34,032 nucleotides of DNA from Planctomycetota bacterium (GTDB lineage Bacteria; Planctomycetota; Phycisphaerae; Sedimentisphaerales; Anaerohalosphaeraceae), in NCBI GenBank assembly GCA_021157685.1, contig JAGGWF010000201.1:1-34032 (forward strand), read 5' to 3'. Positions within the stretch are counted from its first letter, which is position 1, and each line of letters opens with the position of its first letter. The notes below the pieces were generated by a model. It ran no database searches, was not told the DNA's origin, and saw only the letters and a program-made list of their open reading frames with translations. Below, one piece after another: positions 19,815-33,323 of this stretch. The translations under genes were made by a program, and so were the position numbers.

Positions 19815-21392
19815 ATGTCTTCCGAAAAAGTGATGGTTTTTGATACAACGCTGCGGGACGGCGAGCAAGCCGCCGGCAGTCGATTGGGTGTGCGCGAAAA
19901 GCTCGAAGTGGCACGACAACTGGCTCGATTGGGTGTGGATGTCCTCGAAGCGGGGTTTCCTATCTCGTCGCCAAAGGATTTTGAGGCGGTCGAACTGATT
20001 GCCAAAGAGATCCAAGGACCGATTATTTGCGGGTTATCGCGAGCTGTGATAGCGGATATCGACGCCTGCGGCAAGGCATTGGCCAAAGCCAAACGCAGCC
20101 GGATCCATACGGGGCTGGGCGTTTCGGACATCCATATCGCCGGTAAGTTTGCGGATGATAAGTACGGTAAGACGCTGGGTGAGAAAAAAGTCAAGGCGAT
20201 TGAGATGGCCATTACGGCGGTCAAGCACGCCCGGCAGTATACCGATGATGTGGAATTTTATACCGAGGACTCCGGCAGGGCCGAGCCGGGGTATCTGTAC
20301 GAGGTGCTCGAAGCGGTGATTGACGCCGGGGCGACGGTGCTGAATATCCCGGATACGACCGGCTATGCAATTCCGTATGAGTTCGGAAAGCTGATTAAGC
20401 AGATTGGCAAAAAGGTTCCGAATATTGATAAGGCGACCATCAGCGTCCATTGCCATGACGATCTTGGGATGGCGGTGGCGAATTCGCTTGCGGGTGTGCG
20501 AAATGGCGCCCGGCAGGTGGAGTGTACCATCAACGGCATCGGCGAGCGGGCGGGCAACGCGGCGATGGAAGAAGTGGTCATGGCAATTCGGACGCGTCAG
20601 GATTTCTTTGATGTCGATACGAATATCAATGCCGTGGAGTTTTGTCGGACGAGCCGGATGGTATCTGATTTGTTAGGGTTTATCGTACCGCCGAATAAAG
20701 CAGTCGTCGGCGGCAATGCGTTTGCGCACAGTTCAGGGATTCATGTGGACGGGGTTTTGAAAAAACGCGAAACCTATGAGATTATGAAGCCCGAAGATGT
20801 CGGGGCACAAAAAACCAAGGTCGTGCTGACGGCACGGACGGGACGACACGGGTTGCGGCATCGGCTCGAAGAAATGGGATACTCACTGTCTGCTGAAGAA
20901 CTGGATCATGTGTATGAGAGTTTCCTGGTCGTTGCTGATAAAAAGAAAGAAGTCTTTGATGAGGATTTAGCGGCGCTGATTGGCGATGAGGTTCGGATGG
21001 TCAACGAAGCGTATCATCTGGAATACATGAGTGTTACCAGCGGCACGGGGACGCTGCCGACGGGCGCGGTAAAGATTCGCACCGAAGACGGGCAGACACT
21101 TCAGGCAGCGGCTTGCGGGGATGGACCGGTGGATGCGGCCTATGAAGCGATCCGTCAGGCAACGGGCCAGTCGCCCAAGCTGGACCATTACAGTATTCGC
21201 TCGATCACCGGCGGCACCGAAGCAATGGGCGAGGCCACGGTGCGAATTGAGAACGAGGCGGGCCGTGTGTTTATTGGCCGGGGCGTCTCGACGGATATCA
21301 TCGAGGCCAGCGCCAAGGCCTATATCGATGCGATCAACCGGATGGCGGCGGCCCAAGGGGATAATACCCCCTTGGAAAATCCTAAATTATAA
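19815..21392 (+). CDS. leuA: 2-isopropylmalate synthase
   Basis: [88 protein letters not shown]-terminal regulatory domain; followed by leuC, leuD, leuB. Confidence 0.94.
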
Positions 21393-21866
21393 ATACTAAG
21401 CACTAAACAAATTCTAAATTTTAAGCATTAAGTCTTAAACAAAAAACAAAGTTTGAAAAAAAGAAAATAAAAAAACTTATGACCTTGAAGATCGAACTCT
21501 TCAATTCGCCAAGGATATTCGTAAATTTACACGAGGGTTTTCGAAAGATTTTGCGGCTTATGAAGATTTAAAACAACTTATTCGATCAAGTGGCTCTGTT
21601 GGAGCGAATTACATTGAAGCAAATAATGCATTAAGTAAAAAAGACTATCGAATGCGGGTTAAAATCTGCAAGAAAGAGGCCAAAGAAAGCACCTATTGGC
21701 TTCAACTGCTGGAAACCGAAAATAATCAAACAGAGTAAGATCGTATCAAACTTGAAAAAGAGTCTGAAGAATTGACCTATATCTTTGCGGCGATTCTTCG
21801 AAACAGTCAGTAGGTTTTAAGATTTTTTTGTTTTGAATTTGTTTATAATTTAGTGCTTAGAATTTA
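21390..21866. repeat. inverted-repeat-bounded unit around a decayed four-helix-bundle gene
   Basis: TAAATACTAAGCACTAAA (21390-21407) versus TTTAGTGCTTAGAATTTA (21849-21866), 17/18 complementary, plus shared inner AAACAAATTC block. Confidence 0.65.
21478..21813 (+). pseudogene. four-helix-bundle protein (S23 / 23S rRNA intervening-sequence protein-like), disrupted
   Basis: Manual translation: YDLEDRTLQFAKDIRKFTRGFSKDFAAYEDLKQLIRSSGSVGANYIEANNALSKKDYRMRVKICKKEAKESTYWLQLLETENNQTE*DRIKLEKESEELTYIFAAILRNSQ*. In-frame TAA at 21736-21738 and no in-frame start (A-rich frameshift at 5' end). Confidence 0.8.
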
Positions 21867-21892
21867 GAGCTTTTAATACGGAGTATTAGAAA

Positions 21893-24274: not shown

Positions 24275-24303
24275 CTAATCCATCTAATCCGCGAAATCCG
24301 TGG
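24275..24303 (+). repeat. 9-nt phased half-array CTAATCC-at-CTAATCC-gc-GAAATCC-gtgg
   Basis: Heptamers at 24275, 24284 and 24293; no inverted partner found nearby. Confidence 0.65.
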
Positions 24304-24324
24304 TTTAAAAAAGGAAAAACAAAA

Positions 24325-24807
24325 ATGTCAAAAGCACATGTATATAAACGGGATCATGTTAATACGGATGAGATTATTCCGGCACGGTATCTCAATACCG
24401 ACGATGTCGCCGAATTGGCGGCGCACTGCATGGAGGACTTGGACACGGAATTTATGGCCAAGCATCAGGCGGGCGATGTGATTGTCTGTGGTGATGACTT
24501 TGGTTGCGGTTCCAGCCGTGAACACGCCGTCTGGGCGATTCAGGGCGCCAACATCGGCGCGGTGATCGCACAGTCGTTTGCGCGAATCTTTTATCGCAAC
24601 TGCATCAACTGCGGCTTCTATCCGATTGAACTGCACGGCGCATTGGAAAAGATCAACGACGGCGATGAGTTAAAAATCGACTACAACGCCGGCACGATTG
24701 ACAATAAGACGCAGGGAACGAAAATCGAGTTTACGCCACTGCCGGACTTTGCATTAGAAATCGTCAACGATGGCGGTCTGCTAGATCACATTAAAAAGCA
24801 AAAGTAG
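24325..24807 (+). CDS. leuD: 3-isopropylmalate dehydratase small subunit
   Basis: HVNTDEIIPARYLNTDD, VIVCGDDFGCGSSREHAVWAIQGANIGAVIAQSFARIFYRNCINCGF. Confidence 0.95.
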   Translation: MSKAHVYKRDHVNTDEIIPARYLNTDDVAELAAHCMEDLDTEFMAKHQAGDVIVCGDDFGCGSSREHAVWAIQGANIGAVIAQSFARIFYRNCINCGFYPIELHGALEKINDGDELKIDYNAGTIDNKTQGTKIEFTPLPDFALEIVNDGGLLDHIKKQK

Positions 24808-24832: not shown

Positions 24833-24901
24833 ACCATGAAGCTCATGAAGGACATGAAGAAAAATAATTAAAAACTTCATGCTCTTCATGTTCTTCATGG
24901 T
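24833..24901. repeat. 9-nt phased CATGAAG palindrome
   Basis: CATGAAG at 24835, 24844, 24853; inverted CTTCATG at 24875, 24884, 24893; 15-nt AT-rich loop. Confidence 0.9.
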
Positions 24902-24959: not shown

Positions 24960-26045
24960 ATGAAGAGTTACAAGATTGGTGTGATGGGCGGGGACGGAAC
25001 CGGCCCGGAAGTGACCGTTGAGGCGGTCAAGGTCATGGAAGCGGCGGCGGTAAAGTTTGGCTTTAAAGTCGAGCAGACTCCGTATGATTTCGGTGGCGAA
25101 CGGTATATGAAAACCGGTGAAATCCTACCGGACGGCGCTGTTGACGAATTGAAAAAGCAAGACGCGATTCTGCTGGGTGCTATCGGCCATCCGGATGTTA
25201 AACCCGGTATCCTCGAAAAAGGGCTGCTGCTGCAGATGCGGTTTAAGCTGGATCAATACATCAATCTGCGTCCGGTTCGTCTGTTCCCCGGCGTGGAAAC
25301 ACCGATCAAGGACAAAGGGCCCAAGGAAATCGACTATGTCGTCGTCCGTGAAAACTCAGGCGACATCTATACTGGTTCCGGCGGACTGATGATGGCGAAC
25401 ACTCCACACGAAGTGGCCACGCAGACTGCTGTCTATACCCGTTTTCAGGTGGATCGCGCCTTGAAATACGCCTTTGAATATGCCCGCAAGAACGGCAAAA
25501 AAGCCCGCGGCGTTGGCGAAGAAAATACACTCGGCCTGGTTGGCAAGACCAATGTGCTGACTTATATCTATGACCTGTGGGAGCGGGCATTCCATGAAAT
25601 GGGCAAAAAGGACTATCCGGATATCCGCCGGGATTACTATCATGTGGACGCGACCTGTATGTGGATGGTCAAGAGTCCGGAATGGTTTGATGTACTGGTT
25701 ACCGGCAACCTGTTCGGCGATATCATTACCGACTTGGGTGCTATGACGCAGGGCGGCATGGGCATCGCTGCCGGCGGTAACATCAACCCCGAAGGCGTCA
25801 GCATGTTTGAGCCCATCGGCGGTTCGGCGCCGAAGTACACCGGTATGGGCGTGATCAATCCGCTGGCCGCAATCTGCGCGATGCAGATGATGCTTGAAAC
25901 ACTGGGCGAAGAGAAAGCCGCCGCCAAGATTGACGAGGCAGTTCGTTTCGTTACAGCCAATAAACTCAAATCGATGGCTGCAAGACAAATGGGTTACACC
26001 ACCAGCGAAGTCGGCGACATGGTTGCTGAACTGGTCGCTCAATAA
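24960..26045 (+). CDS. leuB: 3-isopropylmalate dehydrogenase
   Basis: YKIGVMGGDGTGPEVTVEAVKVMEAA, VVRENSGDIYTGSGG, TCMWMVKSPEWFDVLVTGNLFGDIITDLGAMTQGGMGIAAGGNINP, SMFEPIGGSAPKYTGMGVINPLAAI. Confidence 0.93.
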   Translation: MKSYKIGVMGGDGTGPEVTVEAVKVMEAAAVKFGFKVEQTPYDFGGERYMKTGEILPDGAVDELKKQDAILLGAIGHPDVKPGILEKGLLLQMRFKLDQYINLRPVRLFPGVETPIKDKGPKEIDYVVVRENSGDIYTGSGGLMMANTPHEVATQTAVYTRFQVDRALKYAFEYARKNGKKARGVGEENTLGLVGKTNVLTYIYDLWERAFHEMGKKDYPDIRRDYYHVDATCMWMVKSPEWFDVLVTGNLFGDIITDLGAMTQGGMGIAAGGNINPEGVSMFEPIGGSAPKYTGMGVINPLAAICAMQMMLETLGEEKAAAKIDEAVRFVTANKLKSMAARQMGYTTSEVGDMVAELVAQ

Positions 26046-26050
26046 ATAAT

Positions 26051-26126
26051 TGCCACAGAGGACACAGAGGTTCACAGAGAAATTGTTTTTATGAAATCCT
26101 CTGAGTTCTCTGTGTACTCTGTGGCA
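26051..26126. repeat. CACAGAG palindrome with about 9-nt phasing
   Basis: TGC-CACAGAG-GA-CACAGAG-GTT-CACAGAG (26051-26079) opposed by CTCTGAG-TT-CTCTGTG-TA-CTCTGTG-GCA (26099-26126). Confidence 0.9.
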
Positions 26127-26147
26127 GGTTTTTTGTCAGAGGTCGTA

Positions 26148-27128
26148 ATGCCGGCTAACTTGACACAGCAGTATAAAAAAGCCGAACAGCGGTATAAGCT
26201 TGCCGGGACTGATGCTGAGCGACTTGATGCATTGGAGGAGATGCTGCGAGAAATCCCTAAGCACAAGGGGACCGAGCACTTGCAGGCCGACCTGAAGAAG
26301 CGACGCAGCAAGCTCAAAGCGGCGATTGAGGGCAGTGGCAAAAAGAGCGGCGAAGTCAAGCATGTCGATGTATTCCATATCCCAAAAAGCGGGGCCGGAC
26401 AGGTGGCGCTCATCGGGATGCCTAATGCTGGCAAAAGCGCGATTCTCGCGGTGCTAACCGGCGCCCATGTTCATGTGGCTGACTATCCGTTTACGACAGA
26501 TAAACCCGCTCCCGGTATGGCCCGGTACGAAGATGTTCACATACAGCTTGTCGATGCTCCGCCGATAACGGCTGACTATGCACCGCCGGGACTGGTAAAC
26601 ACCTATCGCAATGCGGATATCTTGGCCATCGTAATTGACCTGGCGGGTGAGGTGCTGGAACAGATGAAGGTCTGCACGGCGTATCTGGATTCGCACACAC
26701 TGATTCTGGATGAAACAGCAAACAATCCGCTGGCACGCAAGACATTTGTAATCGCGACCAAGGCGGACATCGCACCGGACAGCACGCTGGAGACGCTGAA
26801 GGAATTGACCGAACGGCCGTTTGAGTATATCGAGATTTCGTCGGAAGCCCAGACCGGACTGGACGGATTGTTGCGGCGGATCTTCGAGATGTTGGATATT
26901 GTCCGGGTCTATGCGAAAAAGCCCGGCAAGCCCGCGGACATGACCGACCCGTTTACGCTTAAACGCGGCAGCAATGTACATGATCTGGCCTATCATATCC
27001 ATCGGGAACTGGCTGATAAACTTAAGACCGCTCGCGCCTGGAACTCGCCCAACATCCACGACGGCCAGAATGTCCCTCGTGAACATGTGCTTAGCGATAA
27101 GGAAATTATTGAATTGCATTTTGGATAG
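26148..27128 (+). CDS. DRG/Obg-type GTPase with C-terminal TGS domain
   Basis: GQVALIGMPNAGKSAILAVLTGA, YPFTTDKPAPGMARYEDVHIQLVDAPPI, ATKAD, C-terminal TGS-like KRGSNVHDLAYHIHRELADKLKTARAW. ORF track start 26091 lies inside the CACAGAG palindrome; 26148 (MPANLTQQYKKAE) is more likely. Confidence 0.9.
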   Translation: MPANLTQQYKKAEQRYKLAGTDAERLDALEEMLREIPKHKGTEHLQADLKKRRSKLKAAIEGSGKKSGEVKHVDVFHIPKSGAGQVALIGMPNAGKSAILAVLTGAHVHVADYPFTTDKPAPGMARYEDVHIQLVDAPPITADYAPPGLVNTYRNADILAIVIDLAGEVLEQMKVCTAYLDSHTLILDETANNPLARKTFVIATKADIAPDSTLETLKELTERPFEYIEISSEAQTGLDGLLRRIFEMLDIVRVYAKKPGKPADMTDPFTLKRGSNVHDLAYHIHRELADKLKTARAWNSPNIHDGQNVPREHVLSDKEIIELHFG

Positions 27129-27147
27129 CCCGGAGGGAAGATTTTAC

Positions 27148-27172
27148 CATGAAGAACTTGAAGAACATGAAG
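27148..27172 (+). repeat. 9-nt phased CATGAAG half-array overlapping a start codon
   Basis: CATGAAG-aa-CTTGAAG-aa-CATGAAG at 27148, 27157, 27166. Confidence 0.8.
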
Positions 27173-27568
27173 ACAACAGTGATGTGTGGTGTGGTGTTAA
27201 TGGTATCCAGTTTTTTCTGTGGTTGTTCGAATCGCGTTGGTACGGCAATCAGTTACTATCATGCTACTCGGTCGCAGATACAGCTTGGCATGGACAAGGA
27301 TAATGTTCTGATGATTCTTGAGCCCACGCAAGAAGGTTTGTCATTGCGACAGACGCGTGGGCCGGAGCAATACACACAAGACGGCGTCCATGTGGAAATT
27401 CACTTTTTCCGATCCCATGCCAACTATGATAAAATCCTGACCGATGACGAGTTTACTCCTTATGTTTTTCATGATGGAAAACTTCAGGCCATCGGCTGGA
27501 CAGCCATTGGCGGGCCCAAAACACAGGCACAACCTATCCCGGAACAACATATCACAATTATTCGATAA
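27149..27568 (+). CDS. DUF3192/BamE-like small lipoprotein
   Basis: Signal MKNLKNMKTTVMCGVVLMVSSFFCGC; IQLGMDKDNVLMILEPTQEG, VEIHFFRSHANYDKILTDDEFTPYVFHDGKLQAIGW. Confidence 0.65.
   Translation: MKNLKNMKTTVMCGVVLMVSSFFCGCSNRVGTAISYYHATRSQIQLGMDKDNVLMILEPTQEGLSLRQTRGPEQYTQDGVHVEIHFFRSHANYDKILTDDEFTPYVFHDGKLQAIGWTAIGGPKTQAQPIPEQHITIIR

Positions 27569-31938: not shown

Positions 31939-33323
<1,385 letters not shown>

Follow-up and report, generated by a model that had tools for sequence, protein, structure and literature searches.

A phased CATGAAG palindrome between leuD and leuB of a planctomycete as a probable gene-less member of a mobile hairpin family

Between leuD and leuB of a planctomycete genome, three CATGAAG heptamers face three CTTCATG heptamers at a 9-nt phase. 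Is this palindrome a site that serves the leu operon, or a copy of something that occurs more widely? The window (the whole stretch of DNA analysed, 34,032 nt) was studied together with the source genome and its relatives. The hairpin and its host genes are arranged as follows:

24325..24807, + strand: leuD, host gene upstream of the hairpin (Pfam Aconitase_C)
24833..24859, + strand: left arm, AC followed by CATGAAG three times, spacers CT and GA
24860..24874, no strand assigned: loop, 15 nt, A/T-rich
24875..24901, + strand: right arm, CTTCATG three times, spacers CT and TT, final GT
24960..26045, + strand: leuB, host gene downstream of the hairpin (Pfam Iso_dh)

The three facing heptamer pairs at 24833-24901, as described in the first-pass annotation, were confirmed. 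The arms are 27 nt each with a complementarity of 85%, and the CATGAAGNNCATGAAG pattern was matched four times within the window, with 0 matches expected from shuffles. Folding was much stronger than that of shuffled sequences both as RNA (z = -8.0) and as DNA (z = -6.7). The earlier statement that only the spacers are unpaired holds for Watson-Crick pairs but not for the RNA fold, in which one spacer position forms a G-U pair. Neither a promoter-like or terminator-like match nor an Rfam family was found at the hairpin, and the G/C-rich stem followed by a T run that marks an intrinsic terminator is absent. The palindrome is neither a terminator nor coding, as had been proposed.

Several other phased features were found in the leu operon of the window, including an element with an ORF of the four-helix-bundle (FHB) family:

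21382..21443, + strand: left arms of the leuA-leuC FHB element, phased 7-nt TAAA-type repeats
21490..21780, + strand: decayed four-helix-bundle (PF05635) ORF with one in-frame stop
21831..21868, + strand: right arms of the FHB element, which is the second element and lies in the leuA-leuC gap
24286..24306, + strand: CGGATT-type right arm standing alone (AATCCGCGAAATCCGTGGTTT), upstream of leuD
26052..26125, + strand: third phased hairpin, CACAGAG units, directly 3' of leuB and extending over the predicted start of the following gene

A TGS/MMR_HSR1 GTPase ORF (26091-27128) begins, as predicted, inside the CACAGAG hairpin, where its start and N-terminus (26091-26125) occupy the hairpin's loop and right arm; it could also start later. 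A solo left arm, ACCATGAAGAACTTGAAGAACATGAAG (27146-27172), supplies both the start codon and the N-terminal part of a DUF3192 lipoprotein-like ORF (27149-27568), whose L022 ortholog has one 9-nt unit fewer, in frame. A tRNA gene is located at 31939-32011 (Rfam RF00005).

A genome-wide pattern search, as suggested in the first-pass annotation, revealed several further sites with the CATGAAG hairpin pattern in the source genome, a 2.3-Mb planctomycete MAG. Matches were also present in 23 of 60 related genomes, with up to 54 per genome, while the same pattern reversed, used as a control, gave 0-1 matches. Relatives were named by means of a leuB search and comprised Sedimentisphaerales, Phycisphaerae and other Planctomycetota.

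Orthologous sites were then compared by querying genus relatives with the joined flanks of eight elements. At the leuD-leuB junction the element was, depending on the relative, one unit shorter, absent or replaced. G007 and L022 (Planctomycetales bacterium 4572_13) carry a CATGAAG hairpin at the same junction with two right-arm units, i.e., one 9-nt unit fewer. No element is present in G003 (L218). A half repeat of the CAGATT type is found in G010, whose junction is identical to that of L021, an FHB gene with AAAATG-type arms in G001 (L220), and other phased hairpins in G006 and G002. In the more distant L024, L029 and L047, FHB-like coding sequence, read by eye, lies immediately 5' of leuB. 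Other elements were similarly variable. The L017 element, which carries an ORF of the GxxExxY family, is absent from G010 (flank identity 86%), and the L020 GxxExxY element is absent from G010, G007, G004 and G009. The L012 hairpin is missing from eight relatives, with a CACGAAG hairpin in the same gap of G005. In G002 the L101 FHB element has an altered unit number, and it is absent from G003, G009, G005 and G004. At the orthologous sites compared, no target-site duplication was recognised, and no movement of any element was observed. A lack of other genomic copies and of length polymorphism at the orthologous locus had been named as evidence against the earlier reading; both copies and polymorphism were seen.

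These data bear on the suggestion that the palindrome is recognised by a protein or RNA in place. A hairpin with a regulatory or mRNA-stabilising role, selected at leuD-leuB and bound by protein at its heptamers, would be in line with the strong fold, the strict unit phase and the retention of the element in the G007 ortholog. However, the same hairpin occurs in many unrelated operons, and orthologous sites of close relatives are empty or hold unrelated phased hairpins. The comparison therefore favours a mobile family over a leu-specific site, and the regulatory explanation is considered improbable.

To characterize the spacers, 38 distinct CATGAAG hairpins were collected in a selection step that was blind to spacer sequence. 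The left flank of the core was AC in 38/38, usually preceded by A/T, the termini AC...GT were fixed, and most loops measured 14-20 nt. The 7-nt units matched at 94.9% of positions. Facing spacers, by contrast, were Watson-Crick complementary at only 5.3% of positions versus 28.4 +- 4.3% expected from shuffling, and none of 57 spacer pairs was fully complementary (6.4 expected). In three-unit hairpins, spacers matched at 2/72 positions in register versus 29/72 across registers (P = 2e-8). The effect persisted in the 34 unique spacer combinations (7.4% versus 28.7%), so that common descent from one master hairpin does not explain it. Spacer mismatches in CATGAAG hairpins thus appear to be maintained. 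The heptamers act as units, as first proposed, and the facing spacers, beyond being merely unpaired, avoid pairing. G-U/G-T opposites were not avoided in the spacers, and RNA and DNA can therefore not be told apart as the selected form.

The maintained mismatch is established for the CATGAAG type only, and the CACGAAG type shows a weak trend. No anti-pairing was detected in ORF-framing arms of other types, where variable bases matched better in register than shifted, a result biased by an alignment chosen to maximise matching. The RCRGAG pattern was neutral in the spacer test, and the GATT set was too small. A close precedent for the CATGAAG spacer mismatches is the E. coli REP hairpin, in which TnpA-REP processing depends on a conserved 2x2 mismatch and activity is lost once pairing is restored (PMC8266576).

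The spacers also bear on the possibility that tandem heptamers were made by slippage and inverted by chance or local template switching, with no mobile system involved. Such an origin would fit the differing unit numbers among orthologs. Against it stands dispersal with fixed AC...GT termini. Moreover, template switching would yield matching spacers, whereas the spacers avoid matching, and slippage is hence largely refuted and extremely unlikely.

Which genes accompany arms of this kind? In the source genome, all four GxxExxY genes (PF13366, TIGR04256) adjoin phased arms that belong to the ACCAYGAA type or resemble it, and most of nine FHB genes (PF05635, TIGR02436) are enclosed by arms built from other units. 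Framing was scored from how well the 300-nt regions upstream and downstream of a gene complement each other locally, a score of >=20 being regarded as strong. This threshold was reached by 21/33 GxxExxY genes, 17/38 FHB genes and 3/32 leuB controls, the control positives being partly such elements themselves. When upstream and downstream regions were swapped between loci, 5% (GxxExxY), 0.4% (FHB) and 0.8% (leuB) of the pairs reached >=20. Framing extended to other phyla: in 43 genomes with non-planctomycete records, labelled Armatimonadota, Kiritimatiellota, Verrucomicrobiota, Lentisphaerota and others, 15/23 GxxExxY genes scored >=20 versus 1.2% of swapped pairs. For both families together, a strong arm match was found at 53/94 loci in several phyla (swapped, 0.4-5%); a substantial minority of the genes in both families shows no arms.

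Arms match within a locus, and the unit sequence varies between loci. C-R-Y-(N)-GA units on both sides were found in 16/33 GxxExxY arms and 0/38 FHB arms (P = 4e-7); the GxxExxY arms are of the CATGAAG type, the FHB arms are not. AACCATGAAG ends are common to the leuD-leuB hairpin type and some GxxExxY elements (for example L017, L141 and L154). CATGAAG hairpins were not clearly enriched in GxxExxY genomes (18/23 versus 24/37, many genomes being incomplete). Two GxxExxY paralogs of one genome (L379/L380) share 83.5% identity over 467 nt, with homology ending just beyond the arms. The 1.6-Mb assembly of G061, to which L056 belongs, contains 18 GxxExxY matches, full or partial, several of them on separate contigs with phased arms.

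In 1.05 Mb from two relatives, phased inverted pairs outnumbered those in codon-shuffled controls (7 versus 1 and 19 versus 0). In the unbiased 1.05-Mb scan, phased pairs with 300-450-nt loops enclosed FHB genes in 4/4 cases; the genes were recognised from a family search (G038, L314:15655) or a sequence motif. The strict stem threshold in the G038 scan yielded mostly unrelated palindromes. Among 61 ORF-bearing loci with both neighbours called, albeit crudely by ORF length, 55 lie between co-directional genes, and within these pairs 51 ORFs are in sense and 4 in antisense orientation (P = 2e-11).

With regard to the two proteins, the invariant positions of GxxExxY are E, D, E-x-K and Q-x-x-x-Y. 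Cas4 profile matches were weak and obtained for 8/15 members, and a PDB search with the GxxExxY profile gave no match. GxxExxY is a predicted nuclease of the PD-(D/E)XK kind whose motif resembles that of Cas4/RecB. Among solved proteins, FHB matches 2GSC; it corresponds to the 23S-rRNA-IVS protein family and is a relative of the DGR protein Avd. The dN/dS was 0.07 between two GxxExxY paralogs and 0.11 for one FHB ortholog pair.

The FHB family and the sense orientation of the ORFs within operons are points in favour of insertion at the RNA level as in 23S rRNA IVS. According to this explanation, the hairpin is tolerated by folding in the transcript, spread occurs via reverse transcription, and the mismatches block RNase III cuts in operon mRNAs; Avd, the relative of FHB, is a reverse transcriptase partner in DGRs. 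Stems with mismatches every 7 bp would be poor RNase III substrates, which likewise counts for this explanation. However, reverse transcriptase was found neither in the source genome nor in 9/10 genus relatives, and G-U opposites are not avoided in spacers although they pair in RNA. Spread driven by reverse transcriptase in the source genome (88.7% complete) was rejected, as no RVT_1 match was obtained at E <= 1e-10. Altogether, the RNA-level explanation is unlikely, though less so than the regulatory one.

Mobilisation of REP/REPIN-type elements by resident RAYT (Y1) transposases was also considered. Y1 transposases occur in 44/60 genomes, with four in the source genome, and REP hairpins likewise carry a required mismatch. 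However, in 11/19 loci the Y1 genes are flanked by different, G/C-rich hairpins of the GCCCTGAAAGGGC type and not by A/T-rich phased units. This comparison of the flanks of 19 Y1 loci led to rejection of a RAYT/REP origin, and mobilisation by the resident enzymes is very doubtful. RAYT/Y1 genes with flanking G/C-rich REP-like hairpins were seen at L246, L247, L250-L255, L261-L263 and L265 and are apparently planctomycete REPtrons.

Comparison with known systems places the elements beside several of them. 23S rRNA IVS with an IVP/FHB ORF (PF05635, TIGR02436) also have a small FHB ORF between complementary arms inside a transcript, and this arrangement was found in the FHB elements (17/38) but not in the ORF-less leuD-leuB hairpin. 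Unlike IVS, the elements described here lie in intergenic gaps of protein operons rather than in the 23S rRNA gene, their arms are locus-specific phased repeats, and most CATGAAG copies have no ORF. REP/REPIN with TnpA-REP (RAYT) share dispersed short intergenic palindromes, a mismatch with a function and a partner element that bears a gene; here, however, the phased units are A/T-rich and the partner ORFs encode GxxExxY or FHB instead of a Y1 transposase. At the 19 Y1 loci the flanking hairpins were of the other, G/C-rich type, and the GTAG/CGTC tag of REP/REPIN was not found, with no GTAG among the listed flanks of the CATGAAG hairpins. Like MITEs and other small bacterial mobile palindromes, which are non-autonomous and intergenic, the elements have terminal inverted repeats, are dispersed and vary at orthologous sites; they differ from MITEs in having no known transposase family, and no target-site duplication was recognised. 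Heptamers of cyanobacteria and Beggiatoaceae (STRR; TAACTGA) are also short, phased, intergenic and variable in copy number (PMC4679880). Those heptamers are described as direct repeats, TAACTGA being known from Beggiatoaceae, and the 170 sets of the BOGUAY genome include a single inverted case (PMC4679880), whereas facing inverted arms are the rule in the elements described here. The reverse transcriptase nearby or in the genome that characterizes DGRs (Avd) and retrons was not found.

The leuD-leuB palindrome is therefore probably a non-autonomous, gene-less member of a family of mobile hairpins, larger members of which carry GxxExxY. Support for this conclusion comes from dispersal, presence/absence at orthologous sites, the framing of both ORF families, the maintained mismatches and the sense orientation. 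Members of the family consist of inverted arms of 2-4 short phased units each, enclosing a short A/T-rich loop, as in the leuD-leuB copy, or a small ORF. In the CATGAAG type, the 7-nt cores pair, the 2-nt spacers stay mismatched, and the ORF is GxxExxY; other arm types carry FHB protein. Elements may settle between operon genes with their ORF in sense and be tolerated while co-transcribed with the host genes. The folded mismatched hairpin would be the form recognised during movement, and GxxExxY or a host enzyme might process it, serving gene-less copies in trans.

More tentatively, GxxExxY and FHB could be the factors that move a new class of hairpins which spans several phyla and has no known transposase, a proposal we regard as possible rather than probable. 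Locus-specific phased arms with mismatched spacers would then constitute the recognised hairpin, and some mechanism would keep both arms in step as units change between elements. In the literature searched, which left most subscription journals outside its coverage, no published link of GxxExxY or FHB to phased repeats or planctomycete palindromes was found. Both are very common 'hypothetical' families with no assigned role outside rRNA IVS. The frequent framing of their genes by arms and the occurrence of gene-less hairpins of matching type add up to a testable case for a widespread mobile class inside operons, and the maintained mismatches provide a concrete structural signature that would explain a repeat class of many uncultured bacteria.
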